DNA of 23,171 bases from a virus, in the IMG/VR virus record IMGVR_UViG_3300037586_000149, positions 1-23,171 of that record, one strand, 5' to 3'. Numbering within the stretch: position 1 is the first letter of the stretch; each line of letters begins with the position of its first letter. The notes beneath the pieces are model-generated. The model was not told the origin of the DNA and did no database searches. It saw only the letters and a program-made list of their open reading frames with translations. Shown in pieces: positions 3-23,171 of this stretch. Position numbers and translations under genes: made by a program.

Positions 3-2015
3 TCAGATACCGTTGAGGCGGTTGAAGGGTACTCAGCAGTTTTATCTGAGCTGCTACTTAATAATAAAAAAATAGCAAGATTCATACCACACTCACAAAC
101 AGCAGTGGACGTACATAGAGCACGACTAGCTTCTGATGTGACTAACTACTGTATCTTCAAAAAGAATAAAGGGTGGGAGATCCTCAACACTTGGATCAAA
201 GCCTCCTTATTATGGAAGAATGCAGCAGTAGCATGGGAATATGTTGAAGACTTCGAGATGACCTTTGAGGAATACGAAGAGATTTCAGCAGAAGCCTTGG
301 ACCTGCTCCTTGCAGACTCTGAAGTAGAAGTGGTGGGTGATCTCTTTATTAATGAAGCAGGTATGTACGAATCAGTACGTATCAAGAGAACTATTAATAA
401 GAGTGGTGTCAAGCTTAGGAACATTGAGCCTGAGTCTCTCCTGATAAGCCAGGGGGCATCTTCTATTGGAGAAGCTTCTTTTGTAGGTATCAGGACAGAA
501 ATGACTCGCTCTGAAGTTCGTAAGTCGTACCCCGACCAAGCTGAAGATATAGAGTGGGATGAGGTCAATGACCAGAGCTTTACTTTCCAGCAAGCTATAA
601 ATGTTGAAAAGTCAGCCCGAAGAACTTCTGTTGGACTATCTAATGTTTCATTCCAAGGAAGTGACACCGCTGAAGCTAACCTACCAGTTAGTGTCATTGA
701 GTGTTGGTTACGTGTTGACCGAGATGGCGATGGCATTGCTGAGCTTAAAAGGTTCATCACTATCGGGGATCACATCCTATTTGAAGAAGATGTTGACTTC
801 ATCCCTGTAGCTGACATTAAGCCTTTTGATATCCCGCACGAGTGGGCTGGGCTTTCTATGGCGGACATGACTCGTCCTTCAACCTTAGCGTCCACAGCGA
901 TTCTTCGTGGGTTTGTTGAGAATACTTATCTCACGAACTACTCACCTAAGTTAGCTGACCCTAATGTGGTTGACTTCTCTGCTTTGCAGAATATGAAGCC
1001 AAAACAAATTGTACCTACCAATGGAAACCCCGCAGCTGCTGTGCAGAACATGCCACCAGAAGCGTTATCCACAGGTACTGTGCCTCTGTTGGAGTTCCTG
1101 CAGAAGCATAAAGAACAAGCGAACGGGCTCTCTAAAGCAGCCCAAGGCTTAAACGATACTCTCTACGTGTCAGGAAATTCAGAACAGAAAGTATCGGCTG
1201 TGCAATCCGCAGCACAAACTCGTATCCAACACATTGCTCGAAGATTCATGGAGACTGGCTTTGCCGTTCTTTGTGAAGGTGTATACAAGACAATGCGTAC
1301 CGAGATGCGTACACAGAGCATGAGCTTCTATGACCGCAACGACTTCTATAAAACAATCGACGTTAAGGAATTACCCGATAACATGATGTTACAAGTAGAG
1401 GCGGATGTGGGTGACGGAAGTAACCAGTCTGTGTTAACAAAGATGCAAATGATTGGTCAACAAGTCCTACCTGCTTTACTGCAGGCTGGGTACCAAGGGG
1501 CCATCAATCCTGTAGCACCAGCTACGATTGCTTTCAAAACCATTGAGGCACTAGGCGAAGATCCGTTAGACTACATAGTAGACTACACTTCCGAAGAGTA
1601 CAAGGATTCCGCAATGGAAGGAAAGAAACAACAACAAGAAGCAGACCAGAAGAAGAAAGCGATGGAAGAGCAAACCTTCATGACGAAGATGGCCCTCGAC
1701 CAAGCAAATGTCGACTACACTAATGTACAGTCTCAGAATGCCATACAAGACAATCTGAAACAACTTGTTGTTGCCTTGGATAAATCATATCAAGAATGGG
1801 CGAAATTGGACCTCGCTGCTAATAAAGAAGGGCAACCCACACCCGAACAGCCAGACATACAGGCAATGTATGAAACGGCTCAGTCTTTAATCCGACAAAC
1901 CATGACCCCACCACAGGGAGCAGGAGGAGAAGGAGAACCCGAAGGACCTGAAGGAGGAGAGCAGTTATCTCCTGAAATGATCCAGGCTATGCTTCAACAA
2001 GGCGGGATGGTATGA
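3..2015 (+). CDS. Portal protein (5'-truncated), P22-like podoviral type
   Basis: The frame is open from base 3 with no start codon at its head, so the true start lies upstream; 670 codons are visible. The GTG at 105 lacks an SD and is probably internal. Portal is the dodecameric ring at the capsid vertex through which DNA is packaged and ejected and on which the neck assembles. Visible traits are an acidic N-terminal region, a DRDGDGIAELKRF segment typical of the wing region of P22-like portals, a central stretch (about 1020-1260) with many Asn and Gln, a Gln/Lys-rich helical segment near 1610-1800 that could form the stem/barrel, and a Gly/Glu/Pro-rich tail before the stop. Its place just upstream of scaffold and capsid fits portal in T7-like and P22-like phages. 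Terminase would be expected upstream. The portal role is well supported; the subfamily is inference. Confidence 0.88.
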   Translation, partial: SDTVEAVEGYSAVLSELLLNNKKIARFIPHSQTAVDVHRARLASDVTNYCIFKKNKGWEILNTWIKASLLWKNAAVAWEYVEDFEMTFEEYEEISAEALDLLLADSEVEVVGDLFINEAGMYESVRIKRTINKSGVKLRNIEPESLLISQGASSIGEASFVGIRTEMTRSEVRKSYPDQAEDIEWDEVNDQSFTFQQAINVEKSARRTSVGLSNVSFQGSDTAEANLPVSVIECWLRVDRDGDGIAELKRFITIGDHILFEEDVDFIPVADIKPFDIPHEWAGLSMADMTRPSTLASTAILRGFVENTYLTNYSPKLADPNVVDFSALQNMKPKQIVPTNGNPAAAVQNMPPEALSTGTVPLLEFLQKHKEQANGLSKAAQGLNDTLYVSGNSEQKVSAVQSAAQTRIQHIARRFMETGFAVLCEGVYKTMRTEMRTQSMSFYDRNDFYKTIDVKELPDNMMLQVEADVGDGSNQSVLTKMQMIGQQVLPALLQAGYQGAINPVAPATIAFKTIEALGEDPLDYIVDYTSEEYKDSAMEGKKQQQEADQKKKAMEEQTFMTKMALDQANVDYTNVQSQNAIQDNLKQLVVALDKSYQEWAKLDLAANKEGQPTPEQPDIQAMYETAQSLIRQTMTPPQGAGGEGEPEGPEGGEQLSPEMIQAMLQQGGMV

Positions 2016-3827: not shown

Positions 3828-4895
3828 ATGGCTGCACAATATCAAGTAAATACGACTGCTAAGTCGGAAAAGGAAGATCTGGCGAATTTCATCTCGATGA
3901 TCAGTCGAGACGAGACTCCATTCATGTCTTCAATTGGCAAAACTAAATCTAAAGCGATCTTCCACGAATGGCAAACTGATGAGCTAACTGCTCCTACTTC
4001 TCAGCCTTTCGCTGAAGGTGATTCATTCACAACTGTACAATCAGGTACTGCTGCTAACGTTGACCGTACTCGTATCGGTAACTACACTCAGATCAACTCT
4101 AAAACTGTTTCTGTGTCTGGTACTAAACGAGCTGTTGATCAAGCAGGTGTTGCTGATGAATATGCTTACCAGCTTAAAAAGCGTGGTACTGAGCTTAAGC
4201 GTGACCAAGAGCATGACCTAGTTCACTCTTGTAAAGGCAAGAACGGCACAGGCACTCGTACTATGGGTGGTTACCAAGCATATGTTAACCAAAACCTTGA
4301 AGATGTAACTACTTCTGGTAACAGCTCTTGGACAGCTCCTGGTAGTTTAGGTGATGGTACTATGGATGAAACCCCTATCACTCGTTCTGCTTCAGGTCAA
4401 ACCAATGATGGCAACCTAAAAGCTATCGAGTTGTCAAACGTAGACAACATCATGCAAACTATCTACGAAGCTGGTGGTCGTGCGACTACTCTTATGACTT
4501 CACCTGCTAACAAACGTGCTCTATCTTCTAAAGCACACGGTGCTAGTCAGAACACCATCCGTAACTTAGACGATACTGGTAAGATCCGTCAAAGCATCGA
4601 GCTATTCGATTCTGACTTCGGTGAAATCCAAATCGTACCTAACTACATCATGGGTCTAAGCTACAACACTGACCGTGCTGAGTCTGGTAACATTGCCGCC
4701 GAAAGTGATGCTGCGGATTACTTTGCACTAGTATACGATCCATCTAACTTTGCTATAGCTTCTCTACGTCCACTTCAAGAAACTGAAGTTGGTCAGTTTG
4801 GTGATAGCACTGTTGGTCAGATTGTTGAAGAGTGTACACTTGAAGTTAAAAATCCTAAAGCTGCTGGTATGATCACTGGCTTGAACGGACAATAA
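3828..4895 (+). CDS. Major capsid protein, SU10/DUF5309 type (HK97 fold)
   Basis: A 355-residue protein with SD AAGGA (3814-3818). The N-terminal portion (AQYQVNTTAKSEKEDLANFI, then DETPFMSSIGKTKS and FHEWQTDEL) and the later segments TRIGNYTQI and TLMTSPANKRAL are typical of the SU10 major-capsid family (SU10_MCP, formerly DUF5309). Such proteins form the icosahedral shell with the HK97 fold. Length matches the family, so there is no sign of an N-terminal prohead delta domain and a separate scaffold is expected; it lies directly upstream. A strong intrinsic terminator follows the stop, consistent with very high expression and a defined mRNA 3' end. This capsid type is shared with phage SU10/phiEco32-like viruses and many marine podoviruses. 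Confidence 0.92.
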   Translation: MAAQYQVNTTAKSEKEDLANFISMISRDETPFMSSIGKTKSKAIFHEWQTDELTAPTSQPFAEGDSFTTVQSGTAANVDRTRIGNYTQINSKTVSVSGTKRAVDQAGVADEYAYQLKKRGTELKRDQEHDLVHSCKGKNGTGTRTMGGYQAYVNQNLEDVTTSGNSSWTAPGSLGDGTMDETPITRSASGQTNDGNLKAIELSNVDNIMQTIYEAGGRATTLMTSPANKRALSSKAHGASQNTIRNLDDTGKIRQSIELFDSDFGEIQIVPNYIMGLSYNTDRAESGNIAAESDAADYFALVYDPSNFAIASLRPLQETEVGQFGDSTVGQIVEECTLEVKNPKAAGMITGLNGQ

Positions 4896-4951: not shown

Positions 4952-5257
4952 ATGGATAATAAGATTATATCTAATGTAGACGATGGAAACAGGATAACTG
5001 TTGCACAAGATGTTCAGAGCTACATTGATTACGCAAGACAGTCTCGAAGAGACCAAGAGAGAGGTGATGCTTCTCACTACAGATCTTTCGCTATCATACC
5101 AGATATTATAGCTATAGAGATCTTAGAGAAACATGGATTAAACTTACATGCGTCTGAATTTATGTCTAATAAAGAAGATGTCACTAAGCTTAAAAGAATT
5201 ATAAAATCAGAATACCCGAACCTGTTGACATCTAACGTCTCAAGGGCTCGAGGTTAG
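4952..5257 (+). CDS. Conserved hypothetical neck-region protein
   Basis: A 101-residue protein starting at ATG 4952, with SD TTGGAGG (4941-4947) five bases upstream. It is mostly helical and charged. The central segment RSFAIIPDIIAIEILEKHGL and the following LHASEFM resemble small uncharacterised proteins that sit between major capsid and head-tail adaptor in marine podoviruses; I recognise the pattern but know no function. It lies right after the capsid terminator and 15 bases before the adaptor gene, so it belongs to the neck gene set. A role in head completion or connector assembly is inference from position. Confidence 0.7.
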   Translation: MDNKIISNVDDGNRITVAQDVQSYIDYARQSRRDQERGDASHYRSFAIIPDIIAIEILEKHGLNLHASEFMSNKEDVTKLKRIIKSEYPNLLTSNVSRARG

Positions 5258-5272
5258 AACAGGAGATAACTT

Positions 5273-6034
5273 ATGGCAACGCCATTATACGATGCTTTAG
5301 TGACAAAGGTTAGGTCATGGGCTAACAGAGATTCTAACGTACTGACTGACACACTAATCGGAGACTTCTTAGACTACTCAGCAGACTACTGCTATAGAAC
5401 TATCAAGTTCCCTCCATTTGAAGAAACATTTGATTATGCTGCAATCACAGCAGAAGATGTAGGAGAAACCTCTATTGCATTGCCATCTGATTTCTCGGAG
5501 CTAATACAGTTTAGCAAGACTGATAGCGCAGGTAATACCGTAGTCTTTGAAGAGAGACTCACTTTAGCCGCACTAGAGGATAAAGACTACACCCTTTCAG
5601 GGGAAGTGTTTGCAAGGAAAGGTGATGAATACATTTTCTACCCTGCTGCAGAAGAAGGGGATGTGTATCAAATGCACTATTTCAAACGATTAGCAGACCT
5701 TAACGCAACATATGCAGTCAACCAGACTAACCTTGATGCTGGACTTAATGTAGCAGCTAGCGAAAGCGACCCAGAAGCCGCTGAGATCGTTGAAGGATCT
5801 GGGAACTACTACACAGGCACTGAAGTCCCTAACTGGCTACGAGACAGTAACGAGCGTACACTCCTTTGGGGAGCTGTGGCTCATGCGTTAGATTACGTAG
5901 GTGAAGATGAGAGAGCCGCTAAGTTCTTTGCTAAACAACTAGAAGCTATCACAGAACTTAACAAAGAAGAGATAAACCGAAGAGTCCGAGGGGCAACCTT
6001 AACTACTTCGTACTCTAATGTCGCCGATCTATAA
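5273..6034 (+). CDS. Head-tail adaptor protein (SU10 adaptor / T7 gp11-like)
   Basis: A 253-residue protein with SD AGGAG (5261-5265). The N-terminal helical part (residues about 1-45, with LIGDFLDYSADYCYRTI) precedes a beta-rich middle (IALPSDFSELIQF, GDEYIFYPAAEEGDVYQMHY) and a C-terminal helical part (NERTLLWGAVAHALDYVGED, then AKFFAKQLEAITELN). This helix-sheet-helix layout is that of the adaptor ring bound under the portal in SU10-like phages, equivalent in role to T7 gp11 and P22 gp4. It joins the portal to the nozzle encoded at 10805. The stop codon overlaps the SD of the next gene, so translation is likely coupled to the fibre gene. Confidence 0.8.
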   Translation: MATPLYDALVTKVRSWANRDSNVLTDTLIGDFLDYSADYCYRTIKFPPFEETFDYAAITAEDVGETSIALPSDFSELIQFSKTDSAGNTVVFEERLTLAALEDKDYTLSGEVFARKGDEYIFYPAAEEGDVYQMHYFKRLADLNATYAVNQTNLDAGLNVAASESDPEAAEIVEGSGNYYTGTEVPNWLRDSNERTLLWGAVAHALDYVGEDERAAKFFAKQLEAITELNKEEINRRVRGATLTTSYSNVADL

Positions 6035-9248: not shown

Positions 9249-9635
9249 ATGAGTATACTATCATCATTGATTGAGCCCGTCACAGGCTTGCTTGACAAGT
9301 TCGTAGTGGACAAGGATAAGAAATTAGCCCTTGCCCATGAGATAGCAACTATGGCTGAACGTCATGGTCAGGAACTTGCAAAGGCACAGCTAAAAATAAA
9401 CGAGAAGGAGGCAGCACATAAGTCCCTATTCGTAGCAGGTTGGCGACCCGCAGTTGCTTGGGTTTGCGTGGGTGGGTTCACTATCAATTTCATGATTAGT
9501 CCGCTTGCCGCACCCTTTGGTATCCTTATACCACAGGCAGACACAGCTACTATGATGCCTGTCCTTCTAGGTTTACTTGGACTAGGTACAATGAGAACCT
9601 ATGAGAAGAAGAATGGCGTTCAAAGAGAACGATAA
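9249..9635 (+). CDS. Holin, 3-TM GTA-holin type
   Basis: A 128-residue protein. It opens with an amphipathic helix (residues 1-20) and a charged helical segment (21-58). The signature FVAGWRPAVAWVCVGG (about 61-76) begins the hydrophobic part, which continues through residue 95. A final membrane helix (about 101-115) ends in LLGLGTMRTYEK. The GWRP start and the LGLG-x-x-RT-x-EK end are hallmarks of the 'holin of 3TMs, for gene-transfer release' family. Holins permeabilise the inner membrane at a set time. The SD is weak, and a four-codon frame (ATG 9241 to TGA 9252) overlaps this start, which may throttle expression. No separate endolysin gene lies next to it; the only lysozyme visible is the virion one at 19954. 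Confidence 0.85.
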   Translation: MSILSSLIEPVTGLLDKFVVDKDKKLALAHEIATMAERHGQELAKAQLKINEKEAAHKSLFVAGWRPAVAWVCVGGFTINFMISPLAAPFGILIPQADTATMMPVLLGLLGLGTMRTYEKKNGVQRER

Positions 9636-9657: not shown

Positions 9658-10203
9658 ATGGCTAGTTCCATTGACTCAAATAAACCAGTAACAGGCAGTC
9701 CGACAACATCGTCTGTTCGAGATAACTTTCAACATGCACAGTCAGAAATTAATAGGTTACTCAGAAGTTCTGAAGAATTCCGCACCAACACTGGCAGCGT
9801 AAATGCTCTTGCAGCTGATTTCGGCGTTGACGTAGCTTTGACTGCTGGTGCTCGGATAGTTGTTAAGACTACGGGCGCTAACACAGGAGCTGTTACTTTA
9901 GCATGTGACGGAGGTTCACCTAATAATGTAAAACTCCCTGATGGGTCTTCATTAATTGGCGGGGAGATCCCTGGGGGAACCCACTTTTTAGACTTGTTCT
10001 ATGATGGTACCAATTGGATTTTGCTTAACCCTCAGGCCACTACAAACAAGATCAAAGATAGTGACGGTAATACTTTGCAATCCGATCTTGATGGTAAACT
10101 AGGTTCTAGTGCTACAGCAGTAGCAGCTACTAAGTGGAATGTCTATAATATCTCAACATCCCAGTCTGGCACTGACTCAAGCACCATCTACTTTAGGACG
10201 TAA
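9658..10203 (+). CDS. Hypothetical virion-associated protein, beta-rich
   Basis: A 181-residue protein with strong SD AAGGAG (9645-9650). The N-terminus (SSIDSNKPVTGSPTTSSVRD) leads into a short helix (NFQHAQSEINRLLR). A Gly/Thr/Ala-rich beta region follows, with FLDLFYDGTNWILLNPQ near residues 108-124, a pattern seen in capsid-decoration and tail-fibre head domains of marine phages. The N-terminal lead-in TxSSVRDNFxxxxxEI occurs in several phage fibre and appendage proteins. No TM or catalytic motif is visible. It is nearly contiguous with the next gene (two bases apart). It is probably a structural appendage, with low confidence in anything more specific. Confidence 0.65.
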   Translation: MASSIDSNKPVTGSPTTSSVRDNFQHAQSEINRLLRSSEEFRTNTGSVNALAADFGVDVALTAGARIVVKTTGANTGAVTLACDGGSPNNVKLPDGSSLIGGEIPGGTHFLDLFYDGTNWILLNPQATTNKIKDSDGNTLQSDLDGKLGSSATAVAATKWNVYNISTSQSGTDSSTIYFRT

Positions 10204-15828: not shown

Positions 15829-16281
15829 ATGCTTTGCATGTGGACACAAGAACATTTTAAAGATATGCCAGCTTCAACGCTGGATCACATTAAGTCTGCC
15901 TTAGAATTTAGTTATGGTGAAAGGAGACTTCAACACGTAATGAGTGAGCTTGTACAAGGCACTAAACAGATTTGGCTTGGGACAATTGATGACAAGTTTG
16001 TTGCCACTGTAGTAACCCACATAATTGACTACCCCCTAAAGCGAACCTGTGAGGTTTGTTATCTGGGAGGGGAACCTGGATCTGGTGTAATAGAGGCTTT
16101 AGATAAAGTCAGTTACATCGAAGATTGGGCTTTAAAGAACGACTGTGATGACATTCAAGTGTTCGGAAGAAGGGGCTGGCTTAAAGCCTTAAAGAAATAC
16201 GGGTACTCAGATAGGTACACTATACTGGGTAAATATCTGAGAGAACCACAGGATAATAAAGGATCTAAAAATGAAACTTAA
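15829..16281 (+). CDS. GNAT-fold protein, T7 gp13-like virion assembly protein
   Basis: A 150-residue protein with strong SD GGAGG (15819-15823). The middle shows GNAT-like strand order: IWLGTIDDKFVATVVTHIID, then RTCEVCYLGGEPGSG, a helix (SYIEDWALKND), DDIQVFGRRGWLKALKKYGY and a final strand DRYTILGKYL. The acetyl-CoA pyrophosphate loop (R/Q-x-x-G-x-G/A) is poorly formed here (GGEPGSG), so activity is uncertain. T7 gp13, needed to incorporate internal proteins, belongs to an acetyltransferase-like family and precedes genes 14, 15 and 16; this gene holds the same place. It overlaps the next gene by 11 bases. Confidence 0.65.
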   Translation: MLCMWTQEHFKDMPASTLDHIKSALEFSYGERRLQHVMSELVQGTKQIWLGTIDDKFVATVVTHIIDYPLKRTCEVCYLGGEPGSGVIEALDKVSYIEDWALKNDCDDIQVFGRRGWLKALKKYGYSDRYTILGKYLREPQDNKGSKNET

Positions 16282-17068
16282 AGGTAAACGGTCTCAACTT
16301 GGGGCTAACTATGATGAGTCTATAGGCTGTTTTACAGACAGTTACATGATTCAATGTAAGGGTGGTGGTACAACTGTGACTGGCCCTTCAAAACAACAAG
16401 AGGCAATTCTTAGGCGACAACTCGCATTATCTCGGAATATGGAAGGCTTAGGGCCAATGGATTTCTATCGTGATGAGACCCTTGCTGCACAAGATCGGTA
16501 TAGCCAAGAAGGTCTTATACGACAAGCAGAGGCCGCAGGAGATGTAGGTGGTATAAGTGACACAGCAACTGCAAGATTCCAAGATGCTATGGCATACGAC
16601 CCGACTCAAGATCCACGAACTGAGCAGTACTTAGATGCAATAACCTCTCCATTACAAGAAGAGTTTACTGAAGAAGTGCTCCCAACCTTAGGATCTCGAG
16701 CTGTATCCCAAGGAGCCTTTGGTGGCTCTCGTGCAGCTATTGAAGAAGATAAAGCTGTACGTACATTCGGAAGAGCTATGGGTGATACTCGAGCTAAAGG
16801 ATTGATGGATATCATTGATTCTAATAGACAACAACAAGCGACAATGATGAGTGCAGTACCTTCGCTACAAGATGCAGCCACACAAGAGAGTCAAGTACTC
16901 CGTGATGTTGGTTCTGGATATGAAGGGAGAAGTCAGTTAGAGATTGATGCCGACAGAGAAAGATTTGAATTTGGAGAGCAATCCCCAAGAGATCATTTAA
17001 GAGATGTTTCTGGTATGCTTGGCGGCATAGATTTCGGAAATATAACTAAAACAAAAGGAGGTAAATGA
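16271..17068 (+). CDS. Internal virion protein, T7 gp14-like by position
   Basis: A 265-residue protein overlapping the GNAT-like gene by 11 bases. The N-terminus has two Cys (IGCF, MIQCKGGG). From residue 40 it is helical and charged (SKQQEAILRRQLALSRN). The central segment, YLDAITSPLQEEFTEEVLPT followed by LGSRAVSQGAFGGSRAAIEE, then MDIIDSNRQQQATMMSAVPS, is typical of small internal-virion or ejection proteins in marine podoviruses. There is no TM or enzyme motif. T7 gp14 forms the outer-membrane pore of the ejectosome; equivalence is inferred from gene order. The last ATGATG overlap couples it to the next gene. Confidence 0.6.
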   Translation: MKLKGKRSQLGANYDESIGCFTDSYMIQCKGGGTTVTGPSKQQEAILRRQLALSRNMEGLGPMDFYRDETLAAQDRYSQEGLIRQAEAAGDVGGISDTATARFQDAMAYDPTQDPRTEQYLDAITSPLQEEFTEEVLPTLGSRAVSQGAFGGSRAAIEEDKAVRTFGRAMGDTRAKGLMDIIDSNRQQQATMMSAVPSLQDAATQESQVLRDVGSGYEGRSQLEIDADRERFEFGEQSPRDHLRDVSGMLGGIDFGNITKTKGGK

Positions 17069-17760
17069 TGCCGATTCCATTAATAGCAATGGCGTTAGGT
17101 GGGGCAGCATTAGGTGCCTTGGCTAACCCAGAAGACAGAAAGAAAGGGGCCCTTATGGGTCTTGGAGCTGGACTCACAGGCGGTGCATTGGCCGGTGCAG
17201 GAGCAGCAGGAGCAGCGGGAGCAGCGGGAGCAGCAGGGGCTACAGCAACACCGTTGGTAGCACCAGCAGCACTTGCTACGACAACACCAGCACTTGCAGG
17301 AGCTACAGGAGCCGCTGGAGCTACAGGAGCCGCTGGAGCTACAGGAGCTACGGGTGCATTGACAGGAGCCGCTGGAGCTACACAAGCTGCAGCCGCAGGT
17401 GCTCCTATTGTTGAAGCAGGGATGACTACTAGTGCAATTAACGCTAACGCAGCTCAACTTGCTGCACAACAAGCCGCAGCACCCGTAGCTACATCAGCTG
17501 GAACAGCAGCCCCCACAGGCCCACTAGGTAAGCTAGGAGCCTGGGGTAAGAAGAATCTTCCTGGGATGGCAGGGGATATTGCAAAGCAAACCATAGTCTC
17601 GGAGCTGATACAGAAACCGCAACAAGCACCCGCAGGTAGAAGTCATGCGCTAGCTCAACAAGCACAAGCACCTAACAACCCTTACCAAAGGGCAGTTGTC
17701 AATCGCCAAACACGCATGAAGCAAAGGGGTGCTGGTGGCGGACCTCGTAGGTTTATTTAA
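17068..17760 (+). CDS. Ala/Gly-rich hydrophobic virion protein with collagen-like repeats
   Basis: Two ATGs (17065, 17068) are available; SD AAGGAGG (17055-17061) is six bases before the second, so 17068 is preferred (230 residues). Residues 1-18 (MPIPLIAMALGGAALGAL) are a hydrophobic Gly-zipper-like helix. After a charged DRKK spacer, another Gly/Ala-rich hydrophobic stretch follows. Residues about 45-58 are GAA tripeptides and about 77-110 are GAT/GAA tripeptides encoded by tandem DNA repeats. The C-terminus (LGKLGAWGKKNLPGMAGDIA, then a Gln/Pro-rich and Arg-rich tail) is soluble-looking. Lack of Pro in the repeats argues against a collagen triple helix. Position among ejection genes suggests a membrane-inserting ejection protein (inference). 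Confidence 0.65.
   Translation: MPIPLIAMALGGAALGALANPEDRKKGALMGLGAGLTGGALAGAGAAGAAGAAGAAGATATPLVAPAALATTTPALAGATGAAGATGAAGATGATGALTGAAGATQAAAAGAPIVEAGMTTSAINANAAQLAAQQAAAPVATSAGTAAPTGPLGKLGAWGKKNLPGMAGDIAKQTIVSELIQKPQQAPAGRSHALAQQAQAPNNPYQRAVVNRQTRMKQRGAGGGPRRFI
17200..17352 (+). repeat. Tandem 9-bp and 18-bp repeats coding Gly-Ala-Ala/Thr
   Basis: Four copies of a GGAGCAGCR unit run from 17200 to 17235. An 18-bp unit beginning GGAGCTACAGGAGCC repeats at 17299-17316 and 17317-17334, with an imperfect third copy to 17352 and a partial one near 17364. Copy number is likely to vary by slippage. The repeat period is a multiple of three, so the frame is preserved. Confidence 0.85.
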
Positions 17761-17774
17761 TAAAGGGGAATAAT

Positions 17775-19934
17775 ATGTCCGATTCAAATGCATTAGTCAA
17801 ACTGTTCGGTAACCTCATGAAAGGTCTGGATGACGATGACGATAAGAAGGTGGCGCAAGGTCTTGCACCTGTGCCACAATTAGCTACACCTCCCCAAGTG
17901 ACTCCTCCGGTTTCAGCTCCAACACAACAAGCAGCCCCTACACCAGTACAACAAGGAGTTCCTCCACTTCTGGCTAGACCAGTACAGCAAGAGGTTCCAG
18001 TAGATTTCGATCCAGCCAAACTAGTTCCTATTGAACTAACGCAGGAAGAAGAAGATTGGATAGCAGCACAACAGGGAGTTCCTGCGCCAGTACAACAAGG
18101 AGTTCCTGCGCTATTAGCTAAACCAGGATTAGACCCATCTCAGATAATCCAAGATCCTCAGGCTCAGCCTAGTCTTGGGTTTGATGGTATACCTACACTA
18201 GAAAGTGTACAACCACCACCTGCACAAGAAGATCCGTATGGACACCTCGACTGGGGGGATGCGAATAGAGCAGGATTCCCAGTATGGATGTCTGACCCCT
18301 TAGATTCTGACAGTGCTCGGGGAGCCCCAGAAAGGATTAAACGCATTGATAAACGATTGCAAGAGTTAGAGGCTCTAAGGGATTCTGGTGAGCTGAGCCC
18401 TTATCTTTTTGAGAGACAGGCCAATGAATTGAGATTTCATCGTAAGAGTAGTGAGGGGCATATAGAGGAACAAGAAACTAATCTTAAAGACAGAGAACTT
18501 TATAAGGTAAAACGTTTATATGATGCTGGTCTTACTGATCAAGCTGAAGCATTAGCTGTGGAGCTGGGACTTCCTTCTCCATCAGGCGTACCACCAGTTG
18601 AACTCAACGAAGATGGTGTACCTGTTATGATTGGAAGACCAGAGTCATCAGTCACTCAGGAAGATGTTGACGCTGATGACGCAATAGTTAATAGCGAAGG
18701 GAATGCGAAAGGTAAGGAAGAGCTTGATGAAAAGCTAGAAGGCAATTCTGATCTCCAGAAAAAAGGAGAAGATGAGGATGACGATAGTTTCCTTTCTAGA
18801 TTATGGGATGGTGTTAAGGATGTTATTGTAACACAATTTAAAGATCCTGTAAACCAGAAAGCTATGTTCGCATATGCTATCTCTCGTGCTTTAGGGTACG
18901 ATGGTGCTACTATTGCTGGTAAAGTATTAGAAGATGGATGGTCAAGACAAGCTGAAGCTGAGAAAATATATGGTAAGCAAGTCGTTGCTACAGAGAAGAA
19001 ACGTATCGAAGACAAGAAGATCGATTACTCTAAGCCTATTACAGTGTATCACCCGAAGACCCAGAAAAACCATACTATTTTTAGGACCAAAGGTGGGGAT
19101 CAGTTTGTATGGGAAGTAGGTGGTAGTACAAAGGGTGTGGATATTTCGACGCTTCTCAAAAAGGGGTACGAATTTAAAACAGGCTTGACTCGACAAGATC
19201 ATAGAGATTCGATGCTTAAGACTTTGACTGCTGATACAGCCAGAGCTTTTGACCATATATCAAGTGAGGGTATCGATAATGAGACTAAAGCTGCAATAAG
19301 GAAAGGTATTGATCCTGCAGAATTAAGATCAGCTATAGATAACTTTGTAGGCCAATACCCTAAAGGTACTGACTTTATTAATTCTAATATTATGAATGCA
19401 ATCTCCAGATCAGCAGGTAACTATGTGCAAGCTATTAGCGATAAACGAGCTATAGGGTCTAAAGATCTTACAGGTTATCTCGACTATGAAAAACTCACCC
19501 TTGATATCAAGGATAACGGGTTACCCTCAACATTCTTTGCAATTTCAAAGCATCCTGAGCAAGAGATTGGGGTTAATGGTTGGAGCAAGGTTAACCATAA
19601 GGTTAATGGTTTAATGCAATCAATTAACAGCCAACTACTCAAAGCAAATAAAGATGCACAACCTATGACTAAGGGAGAGGTGTACAAAGCATTGTACGAT
19701 GAGTACGTTACGATGGGAGCAGCTTCGATTGACCCTAAGGACAAGGATGACAATCCATTTGCTACATACTGGGAAAAGGCATCTGTTGAATCATCTGATG
19801 ATAAACATCTTTCCTTATCACCAGCTATGTTATGGATTCAAAACATTGATAAGAAACCTGACCCATCATATTCACCTCCTAACGGGGGTGCATTGATAAA
19901 GACCCTTGTTGCTAACAGATTAGGGAAATCTTAA
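17775..19934 (+). CDS. Large internal virion protein, T7 gp15-like by position
   Basis: A 719-residue protein with SD-like AAGGGGAA (17763-17770). Residues 1-30 are a short helix with an acidic run (LDDDDDKK). Residues 31-150 are Pro/Gln-rich and disordered, with PVQQGVPPLLARP (57-69), PVQQEVP (69-75), AQQGVP (98-103) and PVQQGVPALLAKP (105-117). Residues about 190-300 are helical and charged. Residues about 345-400 contain WDGVKDVIVTQFKDPVNQKA and AISRALGYDGATIAGKVLED, a small-residue helical region common in phage ejection proteins. The rest is globular and helical. T7 gp15 is 747 residues and sits before gp16, as here. No enzyme motif is recognised; assignment is by length and order. Confidence 0.6.
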   Translation: MSDSNALVKLFGNLMKGLDDDDDKKVAQGLAPVPQLATPPQVTPPVSAPTQQAAPTPVQQGVPPLLARPVQQEVPVDFDPAKLVPIELTQEEEDWIAAQQGVPAPVQQGVPALLAKPGLDPSQIIQDPQAQPSLGFDGIPTLESVQPPPAQEDPYGHLDWGDANRAGFPVWMSDPLDSDSARGAPERIKRIDKRLQELEALRDSGELSPYLFERQANELRFHRKSSEGHIEEQETNLKDRELYKVKRLYDAGLTDQAEALAVELGLPSPSGVPPVELNEDGVPVMIGRPESSVTQEDVDADDAIVNSEGNAKGKEELDEKLEGNSDLQKKGEDEDDDSFLSRLWDGVKDVIVTQFKDPVNQKAMFAYAISRALGYDGATIAGKVLEDGWSRQAEAEKIYGKQVVATEKKRIEDKKIDYSKPITVYHPKTQKNHTIFRTKGGDQFVWEVGGSTKGVDISTLLKKGYEFKTGLTRQDHRDSMLKTLTADTARAFDHISSEGIDNETKAAIRKGIDPAELRSAIDNFVGQYPKGTDFINSNIMNAISRSAGNYVQAISDKRAIGSKDLTGYLDYEKLTLDIKDNGLPSTFFAISKHPEQEIGVNGWSKVNHKVNGLMQSINSQLLKANKDAQPMTKGEVYKALYDEYVTMGAASIDPKDKDDNPFATYWEKASVESSDDKHLSLSPAMLWIQNIDKKPDPSYSPPNGGALIKTLVANRLGKS
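17943..18125 (+). repeat. Repeated PVQQGVP-coding segments
   Basis: The string GTACAACAAGGAGTTCCT occurs near 17947 and again near 18090. Degenerate versions lie near 17985 and 18068. They encode PVQQGVP-type units in a disordered Pro/Gln region. Near-identity at DNA level points to recent duplication. Confidence 0.7.
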
Positions 19935-19953
19935 TTAATAGGAGATGTCGATT

Positions 19954-22900
19954 ATGAGCGACAATAAAGAAGTACTTCATGGGCAAGACGCAATAGCTCA
20001 AGTCGAACAAAACTTAGGAAGACCGTTAACCTATGCGGAGAAACGCGTAGTCGAGGAAGAGGGGTACGTTGCTACCCCTTATACCGACACTAAAGGTGTT
20101 ACAACCTTTGGGGTAGGTCAAACGGGAAGGTGGATCGAGGAAGGTTTTGAGCCTGCTTTTCAGCATCATGTTGACAGAGCTAGAGCTCGTATACCTAAGT
20201 TCGATAAGTTCCCTGAGGAACTCCAAGCTGAGCTTATTCAAGCTGAGTACAGGGGTGACTTGGGGCATTCCCCTACTTTTGTACGTCTTATGAATGAAGG
20301 TAATTACCAAGAAGCCTCTCAGGAATTCTTGGATAACAATGATTACCGTAAGTCACAGGAAGAGATGACAGGTGTCCACGGGAGAATGAAGAGAGTATCT
20401 GATGCAGTTGCATCCTTTGGTGCTCCTGCGGTAGACGAAAAGGGGAGAGTAGTACCTGAGGCTACAACAGCCCCTGTAACCGACTTTAGAATCGGTACCT
20501 CAGGATATTCATTCATTGACGGTGATACTGTTAAGGATGATACTACAGGTGAACGAATAAGACTCCGTGAGATAGACCTTGCTGAGCTTACTAAAGTCAC
20601 AAGAGAAGGTGGGTATTCAGTTGGTGAAGGTGCAGGTCAAGTTACTAAAGAGTACGTGGCACACCTAGCTAACAAGTATGGATACACACAAGTAAAAGCT
20701 GGAAAAGAAAAAGATGACTATGGGCGTAGGATTGGTGATCTAGTTGATGAAGAGGGCAACTCCTTTACCGACTTCTTGATCAGCCAAGGTATCGCAAGAC
20801 CTACCTTCATTGGTAGATCAACTGAGATGATGAGCGATGAGAGTTATGATCGATTCGTCTGGGGTGAGAGCCTAAGAAGCCTTAGGGGTCCCGACACAAA
20901 GAGAACAGATATAGATGTTGCTCGAGAGTTAATACAGAGAGCAGCCTTAGATCCTTCTAATGGTGTCCCTCTATTCAAACAGAAAGCTTTTAACGAAGAG
21001 GAGTTCGCATCTTTCCCTGAGTTATTCTCAGGTGTAGTATTACGTAATAAGAATGCAACCTTTGACAACAGATCTAAGACACCTTTCTCAGATTCTTTTG
21101 GTGCTGGTGTAACATCAGCCGTTAACTCTTTCAGAATGGCTGGTGCAGCTATGGCAGACACTGTGGGTGCTGACGATGCTCAGGCTTGGTTTGAGGGCGG
21201 TGCTGCTTACCATAGATCTAAGTTGGCTGATGCACCTAAGGTCCGATTGAGCTATGAGGATGTTGATTGGTCTTCATTCGGTCAAGTCACAGAGTTCCTT
21301 GGGTCTAACATTGCAATGTCTCTCCCTTACATGGGAGTCACTATGGCATCAGTAGTGGCCGCTCCGTTCACTTTCGGAACTAGCTTAACTGTCCCTGTGG
21401 CAATGTACTCAGGTATGATCCTTGACGAAATGCCAGGGAAGATGGAAGATAAGAGCTACGGTGTTGCCCTTGCAGGTGGCGCAATAGCTGCATCATTAGA
21501 TCGTTTAGGTCTTAAAGCGGCTATGGGTTCTTTCACCCCTAAGCATTTCTTAACTGGAGAAGCTAAGGATAAGGCTATCGATGCTATCCAACAAGCAGGA
21601 CTAGCGGTAAGTAGGGAAGAAGCTGAGCAAGTTCTTTCAAAAGCTACTAAGCGAGAGCTACTAGGCTATCTCGGTGATGCAAGTAATTTCATGGAGAATC
21701 AAATAACCAAGAGCTACATACTAAAGCAGTTTGCTAAAAGGATGTCAGTCTCAGGTGGCATGGAAGGTGGTACGGAGATGCTTCAAGAGCTAACCCAATA
21801 CACATCTGCTGTCATAGGATCTGAGAAGACTTGGGATTATGATGAGCTTGAAGAGCGTATGGCCAATGCCGCTATTGCTGGTGGTATGATTGGTAGTTCT
21901 TTCTCTGTACCCTCTACAGCTTTCCAAGCAGGTCAATGGAAAGATGCTGGGGTTGCTAAGTCAGATTATGATAAGCGATTTGATGATGCCACAGCTGGCT
22001 TTAGGGCAGATGAAAGGGCAAAGACTGCAACAGAAGGTAGTAAAGGATATGTCCCCGACATTCAAACTAAACTGTCTGGGTTCTGGGATAGGATCAAAAG
22101 TAAGAAAGTAGACAGGCAAGAGAAGCTCAAGAAAGGAACTCCTGTTCCAGACGAGACTACACTTGACGACTTCGCATCCGAATCTGATACGAGGAGAGAT
22201 GCAAGACCTACCTCTCAGAAGCTAAAGGATATCCTAAAGGACCCAGTATCTGCATTAAGATCATCTCTTGACACACGTATAACTATTGACATGCTTAATA
22301 GCAGCCCTACCCTACGACTCATATATGATGGGTTTGCGGGTAAGAAGAATAAAACACATGGTGGTATTGATTTCCAGAACGATAAGCTACTAAACTTTAC
22401 CCATTTTGAGAAGTTCCTTCGACCAATCGAAGAGATCCTGAATGATTTTAAGGTTAAGGGTAGAACTTATGGTAAGAGACGTACCGCAATCTCGACCCTT
22501 GTGCAGAAATTCTATGAGAAAGAGATACGACCTATAACCAAAAGGGATAGTAACAAGAAGTGGAAGAGTGTCGATGATATCTTCAGTCAAATAGATTGGA
22601 ATAACGTATCAGATCCTGCCTTTGTTAAGAACAAGGATGCAATAGAGACTCTAGTTCGAGAACTCTACACTGTCGATGATGCAATGTATCGGAATATAAC
22701 AGCAGTCCAAGAGGTAGCTGGGGAAAGGCAGATAGGTGAACTGCAAGATCACATCTTCAGAAGCAAAGGTTTCTTAAAGAAGCATATTGGTAAGAAGAAA
22801 GAGGAGTTCACTAACCTACTCGCTGAGACTTATGGACTTAGTAGAGATGTTGCAGCATCTGTCACTGATTCTATCATTGATAACCCTGAAGTTAACACCT

Positions 22901-23171
22901 TAGATGAGGCGTTTGACTTGACTAAAGGGGGCATAGTACCTAAGGGCCACAAGCGTAGGTCACTTAACCTTGCGGATAACCCAGAGTTCTCTGAGTTCTT
23001 AGAGCAAGATGTCTTCAGGAACCTCGAGTTCCTCATGAAGGGCTCAGCTCGCTACATGACTATGACTAAGTTCATTGGTCGTGACAGTGTAGTGCTGATG
23101 GAACAGCTCAGGGATGTTTATAGAGAACTTCGAGGAGATGCAGAGGAAGGCTCGCCCAAAGCTCAAGCAGC
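19954..23171 (+). CDS. Giant virion protein: GH24 lysozyme + SNase-like nuclease + long C-terminus (3'-truncated)
   Basis: ATG 19954 has SD AGGAGA (19940-19945). The frame has no stop through the right edge, so at least 1072 residues are coded. Residues about 25-155 are a T4-type lysozyme: E36, D45 and T51 reproduce the E-x8-D-x5-T triad in EEEGYVATPYTDTKGVTTFG, and later segments (SPTFVRLMNEGNYQEASQEF, GRMKRV) fit the same fold. Residues about 177-311 match staphylococcal nuclease: D189, D191 (IDGDTVK), R203, D208, E211 (IRLREIDLAE) and R258 (KDDYGRR) align with D19, D21, R35, D40, E43 and R87. Residues about 447-525 hold hydrophobic segments, perhaps membrane-inserting. The rest is long, charged and helical. 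Position after gp14/gp15-like genes equals T7 gp16, which also carries an N-terminal wall-cutting domain. Enzyme calls rest on motifs; ejection into the host is inference. Confidence 0.85.
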   Translation, partial: MSDNKEVLHGQDAIAQVEQNLGRPLTYAEKRVVEEEGYVATPYTDTKGVTTFGVGQTGRWIEEGFEPAFQHHVDRARARIPKFDKFPEELQAELIQAEYRGDLGHSPTFVRLMNEGNYQEASQEFLDNNDYRKSQEEMTGVHGRMKRVSDAVASFGAPAVDEKGRVVPEATTAPVTDFRIGTSGYSFIDGDTVKDDTTGERIRLREIDLAELTKVTREGGYSVGEGAGQVTKEYVAHLANKYGYTQVKAGKEKDDYGRRIGDLVDEEGNSFTDFLISQGIARPTFIGRSTEMMSDESYDRFVWGESLRSLRGPDTKRTDIDVARELIQRAALDPSNGVPLFKQKAFNEEEFASFPELFSGVVLRNKNATFDNRSKTPFSDSFGAGVTSAVNSFRMAGAAMADTVGADDAQAWFEGGAAYHRSKLADAPKVRLSYEDVDWSSFGQVTEFLGSNIAMSLPYMGVTMASVVAAPFTFGTSLTVPVAMYSGMILDEMPGKMEDKSYGVALAGGAIAASLDRLGLKAAMGSFTPKHFLTGEAKDKAIDAIQQAGLAVSREEAEQVLSKATKRELLGYLGDASNFMENQITKSYILKQFAKRMSVSGGMEGGTEMLQELTQYTSAVIGSEKTWDYDELEERMANAAIAGGMIGSSFSVPSTAFQAGQWKDAGVAKSDYDKRFDDATAGFRADERAKTATEGSKGYVPDIQTKLSGFWDRIKSKKVDRQEKLKKGTPVPDETTLDDFASESDTRRDARPTSQKLKDILKDPVSALRSSLDTRITIDMLNSSPTLRLIYDGFAGKKNKTHGGIDFQNDKLLNFTHFEKFLRPIEEILNDFKVKGRTYGKRRTAISTLVQKFYEKEIRPITKRDSNKKWKSVDDIFSQIDWNNVSDPAFVKNKDAIETLVRELYTVDDAMYRNITAVQEVAGERQIGELQDHIFRSKGFLKKHIGKKKEEFTNLLAETYGLSRDVAASVTDSIIDNPEVNTLDEAFDLTKGGIVPKGHKRRSLNLADNPEFSEFLEQDVFRNLEFLMKGSARYMTMTKFIGRDSVVLMEQLRDVYRELRGDAEEGSPKAQA

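Follow-up and report, generated by a model that had tools for sequence, protein, structure and literature searches.

A staphylococcal nuclease domain in a giant phage protein

The window, by which we mean the whole 23,171-nucleotide stretch of viral DNA that was analysed, encodes a giant protein in which residues ~187–290 form a staphylococcal nuclease (SNase) domain directly behind a lysozyme domain. We favour, at a little short of an even chance, a reading in which an SU10-like marine podovirus uses this protein as a giant ejection protein: the T4-type lysozyme and the presumed Ca2+-dependent SNase-type nuclease at its N-terminal end would be delivered with the genome, and the nuclease would act, probably in the periplasm, on DNA not enclosed in the conduit of its own phage.

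The open-reading frame starts at 19945, or at an ATG at 19954, and meets no stop before the window end; a public viral contig (L003), which overlaps the window by 3,938 bases without a single difference, yields the complete protein of 1,529 aa (L003 712–5301). Its parts are as follows.

19945..23171, + strand: giant protein, a probable ejection protein, N-terminal 1,075 of 1,529 aa
19975..20403, + strand: T4-type lysozyme domain, residues ~8–150, triad E36-D45-T51
20512..20823, + strand: SNase domain core, residues ~187–290
20518..20529, + strand: D189-G190-D191-T192 (D19-D21-T22 of S. aureus nuclease), invariant or nearly so among relatives
20560..20586, + strand: R203 (R35), D208 (D40) and E211 (E43), with D40 changed to E or N in some relatives
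20719..20727, + strand: Y256-G257-R258 (Y85-G86-R87), from the alignment with staphylococcal nuclease and relatives
20902..23171, + strand: large, mostly helical body, common to CRP-7 gp34 and phiA008 gene0066

The first-pass annotation of this DNA had proposed a SNase-like domain in the order and spacing of the S. aureus nuclease core, and profile searches bear this out. The domain belongs to PF00565 by its curated cut-off (21 bits), both as the cut-out residues 177–311 (E=5e-5, 24.1 bits) and in a separate six-frame scan (23.9 bits), whilst the window's whole protein scores slightly under it (20.5 bits). The best phmmer match to solved S. aureus nucleases had E=0.0034, and phrog_37474 spans both the lysozyme and the SNase (E=6e-37). 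A profile built only from the other lineages scored the window at 72 bits, against 15.6 bits for the best of 5,000 shuffles, and the catalytic residue pattern was found at a single place in the six frames and in none of 300 shuffles. In the AF2 model the strands and helices follow the order of the SNase OB-fold, and all 50 of the 50 Foldseek matches listed from the PDB were staphylococcal nuclease (prob 1.00); at TM(target) ~0.56 and rmsd ~5.5 Å, however, the model backs the topology of the proposed fold and not its active-site geometry. Among the matches listed, VIA-align returned lysozyme-type structures only, because the lysozyme half occupied all of them, and this is no evidence against the SNase half.

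The lysozyme was absent from the first-pass annotation. Its PF00959 score (18.9 bits) lies under the curated cut-off of 22.3, whilst residues 25–155 superpose on T4 lysozyme (VIA-align, Z ~9.5) and E36-D45-T51 are spaced as E11-D20-T26 of that enzyme. N4-like Vibrio phages (NC_020848, which is our L061, 5992 onward, and others) have a relative of this lysozyme (43–45% identical) as the N-terminal part of their virion RNA polymerase, which by its sequence is another carrier of the same wall enzyme.

Genomic setting and the putative ejection cassette

The window carries head genes of the SU10 type; among cultured phages, roseophage CRP-7 has the capsid protein nearest to its own (50% identity). 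Further on lies a late cassette, in which the SNase gene follows four other ORFs.

3..2015, + strand: portal protein, SU10 type (PF23899, E=1e-108)
3828..4895, + strand: major capsid protein, SU10 type (PF17236, E=5e-75)
5273..6034, + strand: head–tail adaptor, SU10 type (PF24175, E=5e-15)
9249–9635: holin gene, in the same late region as the giant-protein gene
15829..16281, + strand: 150-aa ORF that opens the putative ejection cassette (matched to CRP-7 gp38 by hhalign, E=9e-9)
16271..17068, + strand: cassette ORF, 265 aa (weak match to "DNA ejection protein", phrog_4287, E=5.5e-5)
17065..17760, + strand: cassette ORF, 231 aa, Ala/Gly-rich in relatives and in the same order there
17775..19934, + strand: cassette ORF, 719 aa, directly upstream of the SNase protein, no family match, same order in relatives

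The SNase gene occupies the place in the late cassette held in SU10 by gp20–24, proteins which were detected in virions by mass spectrometry and were absent after genome release (PMC9509320). The placing of the domain inside a candidate ejection protein is upheld by this position, and the full-length protein also matches phrog_6958, "virion structural protein" (E=1.3e-25), whilst the body distantly matches a KPP25/R18 protein (hhalign) labelled structural in the KPP25 record. We therefore consider it highly probable that the giant protein is present in virions, and the giant protein of this marine short-tailed phage is very probably ejected into the host with the DNA. As a homologue of SU10 gp20–24 it was rejected, as hhalign detected nothing, and the AF2 model of the body (pLDDT 45) was too poor for a fold search.

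Alternatively, the protein may stay behind, with nuclease and lysozyme acting towards the end of infection in the cell that made them, at lysis for instance, as could be suggested by the holin gene in the same late region and by the authors of the R8W genome, who took gp43, a homologue of the window's lysozyme, as the endolysin (PMC8228385). We regard this as very unlikely, given the match in cassette position to SU10 gp20–24, the membership of the R8W and H4/4 proteins in the T7 gp16 family, and the oddity of a 1,529-aa carrier for a lysis enzyme.

Two further genes deserve mention. A 181-aa open-reading frame (9658–10203) has a sub-threshold match to Trypco1, a trypsin-co-occurring domain. 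Just 3' of the SNase protein, beyond the window end, lies a putative, divergent look-alike of the N4-type virion RNA polymerase, found in relatives at L032 5305 onward (1,296 aa), L019 12131–16156, L012 12072–15869, L021 11709–15275 and L055 6353–10480. It matches phrog_2206 (E=2.2e-7, L019) and the VBP47 virion RNA polymerase (hhalign prob 93), and its conserved motifs resemble A (DG.SNG), B (K..LMTF.YG) and C (PIYDA..TD); CRP-7 gp33, which holds the corresponding position, was not alignable to it.

Conservation of the catalytic residues

The equivalence of D191, R203, D208, E211 and R258 to D21, R35, D40, E43 and R87, as first proposed, was confirmed residue by residue (189 D, 191 D, 203 R, 208 D, 211 E, 256 Y and 258 R in the window's protein), with all five present at matching spacing. 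Equivalents of D21, R35, E43 and R87 are retained in every lineage examined, whilst D40, a Ca2+ ligand, is replaced by E in L055 and by N in R8W, H4/4 and the uncultured L065. The SNase was better conserved than the body in all 14 of the 14 pairs compared, which are not independent of one another, and its dN/dS of ~0.1 indicates purifying selection.

The SNase fold is an OB-fold, and some SNase-like domains of other proteins have lost catalysis. The domain might thus serve in the head or conduit as no more than a DNA- or protein-binding part, a reading with which the variation at D40 would agree. It is, however, distinctly unlikely in our judgement, as the other four residues are kept across lineages whose domains share only ~30–40% identity; this conservation argues for catalysis over mere binding, and the domain is, from its sequence, probably catalytically competent.

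One enzyme pair on two bodies

A homologous body with an N-terminal SNase is shared by the window's group, the CRP-7 group, the contigs L021, L055 and L070, and Aeromonas phage phiA008. The position of the wall enzyme differs between them: in the window's group the lysozyme and SNase are in the same protein, whereas in the CRP-7 group a lysozyme-like domain sits on the preceding protein. In L021 it seems to be a separate small gene, as a 258-aa product (5124–5897) encoded two genes before the SNase protein is lytic transglycosylase-like by eye, with no Pfam match. The body relatives R18 and KIT05 are without the SNase domain, which is therefore not universal in the body family.

In Alteromonas phages R8W and H4/4 the SNase is instead part of a T7 gp16-family protein, whose body is a different one (R8W against phrog_342, E=1e-77), and it comes directly after a lysozyme with 48% identity to that of the window. 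In both, the lysozyme and SNase/gp16-like frames overlap at GTA AAA AAG TAG, a classical −1 slippery site (R8W, L002 8459–8490; H4/4, L064 8965–8985); the H4/4 record annotates a −1 frameshift fusion and the R8W record two separate genes, whilst in L065 lysozyme and SNase are fused in frame. As the two SNase-carrying bodies show no detectable mutual similarity (hhalign prob 2%), the lysozyme–SNase pair is attached to two bodies without detectable likeness. The comparison with T7 gp16 drawn in the first-pass annotation thus holds in part: the body in the window is not detectably related (no homology to T7 gp14–16 by hhalign, no match to phrog_342), yet the pair occurs on a true gp16-family protein in the Alteromonas phages.

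Two other matches were set aside. The one match in the genome-contig scan (L067) lies on an Acidimicrobiales contig that has the usual cellular genes but none from phages, and it was taken as spurious; a Dinoroseobacter R4C phage match is a small gene beside an integrase and not an ejection protein.

A possible site and target of the nuclease

Under our preferred reading, the giant protein, packed in the head, would be at least partly unfolded as it exits via the tail, ahead of the DNA or together with it, and would then refold in the cell envelope and help to form a trans-envelope conduit. The lysozyme would open the peptidoglycan, and the SNase beside it would sit in the periplasm, at a Ca2+ level near ambient, and cut DNA not enclosed by that conduit; rival phage genomes on their way in would be the most useful target. 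The adjoining lysozyme would place this end of the giant protein in the periplasm rather than the cytoplasm, and we give a periplasmic site slightly better than an even chance. With the phage's own genome inside the conduit, the DNA exposed to the enzyme in the periplasm would come from other sources, chiefly competing phages; that competitor DNA is the main target we suggest only tentatively. Ca2+ is plentiful in the periplasm and scarce in the cytoplasm, so the SNase would be silent during assembly.

Counted for this reading are the SNase profile and fold, the catalytic conservation, the better conservation of the SNase than of the body, the purifying selection, the SU10-like cassette place, the virion-structural family of the body and the pair on a gp16-family protein; counted against it are the D40 replacements in L055, R8W, H4/4 and L065, the danger that an active SNase in the head would pose to the phage's own DNA in seawater, and R18 and KIT05, which manage without the domain.

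In the main rival reading, the ejected nuclease would pass into the cytoplasm and attack the chromosome or RNA of the host, either to take the cell over or to gain nucleotides. Nucleotide recycling is plausible in that CRP-7 has ribonucleotide reductase genes and an exonuclease, and the product of the neighbouring gene, if it truly is a virion RNA polymerase, would have to arrive in the cytoplasm together with the DNA. However, S. aureus nuclease requires Ca2+ at a near-millimolar concentration, of which the cytoplasm falls far short, the enzyme would have access there to the phage's own DNA, and the adjacent lysozyme works in the periplasm, hence we consider a cytoplasmic action somewhat unlikely.

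How the phage spares its own DNA from a Ca2+-dependent nuclease, a puzzle raised in the first-pass annotation, is in our judgement a real one, as an active SNase in the head would threaten that DNA if virions sit in seawater of 10 mM Ca2+. One possible answer to the survival of the packed genome is partial unfolding of ejection proteins, cited in PMC8402733 as documented for T7 gp15 and gp16. A broader proposal, which we hold to be unlikely, is that lysozyme and SNase form a mobile two-enzyme module on unrelated giant ejection proteins of at least two podovirus lineages, a virion-delivered periplasmic weapon against competing phage DNA at the start of infection, with the phage's own DNA spared because the enzyme is unfolded in the head and the conduit keeps the two apart.

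Relation to known systems

Members of the staphylococcal nuclease family (PF00565) are alike in fold order and in the D21-R35-D40-E43-R87 spacing, but are free secreted or plasmid-borne enzymes, whereas the SNase in the window is built into a giant phage protein behind a lysozyme; the nearest cellular sequences among plasmids are alphaproteobacterial thermonucleases (~32–36% identical). T7 gp16, with its lytic transglycosylase head, is likewise a giant ejection protein with an N-terminal peptidoglycan enzyme, and its family phrog_342 includes the SNase-bearing R8W gp44, yet the T7 genome itself, unlike the window, has no SNase. SU10 shares the genomic place of gp20–24 and a related capsid, portal and adaptor, but has no SNase, its wall enzyme is the separate gp20, and gp20–24 have no detectable sequence relation to the SNase protein. 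CRP-7 gp34 and phiA008 gene0066 have the homologous body and N-terminal SNase, but no lysozyme in the same protein. An enzyme is also enclosed with the genome when foreign proteins are placed in T4 heads by internal-protein fusion (Mullaney and Black 1998), an engineered and not a natural arrangement; these proteins are reported to have included staphylococcal nuclease, which cut the packed DNA once Ca2+ was added.

The earlier remark that no described ejection protein with this domain was known holds for the literature searched but not for deposited genomes, where the domain is already present, unremarked, in CRP-7 gp34 and phiA008 gene0066 (both annotated hypothetical protein), R8W gp44 and H4/4 gp40. 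Our literature search found no published description of a SNase or thermonuclease in connection with a virion, which is weak evidence since most subscription papers lay outside its coverage, and the available portions of the CRP-7 and R8W papers contain no word beginning with "nuclease" and no discussion of such a domain. SNase domains are known and ejection proteins are known; within this partial coverage no paper joins them.

The enzymes ejected by short-tailed phages are, to our knowledge, peptidoglycan cutters or DNA transcribers. A nuclease ejected with the genome, if true, would be a new ejection-protein function, delivered before any phage gene expression, and would assign a function to proteins annotated only as hypothetical or internal virion proteins. 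It raises the question of how a virion in Ca2+-rich seawater can keep an enzyme that cuts DNA next to its own genome, and the reading is directly testable in the cultured phages with the domain, CRP-7, R8W, H4/4 and phiA008. The same domain pair in an unrelated phage family suggests that some phages may deliver a DNA-cutting enzyme at infection.
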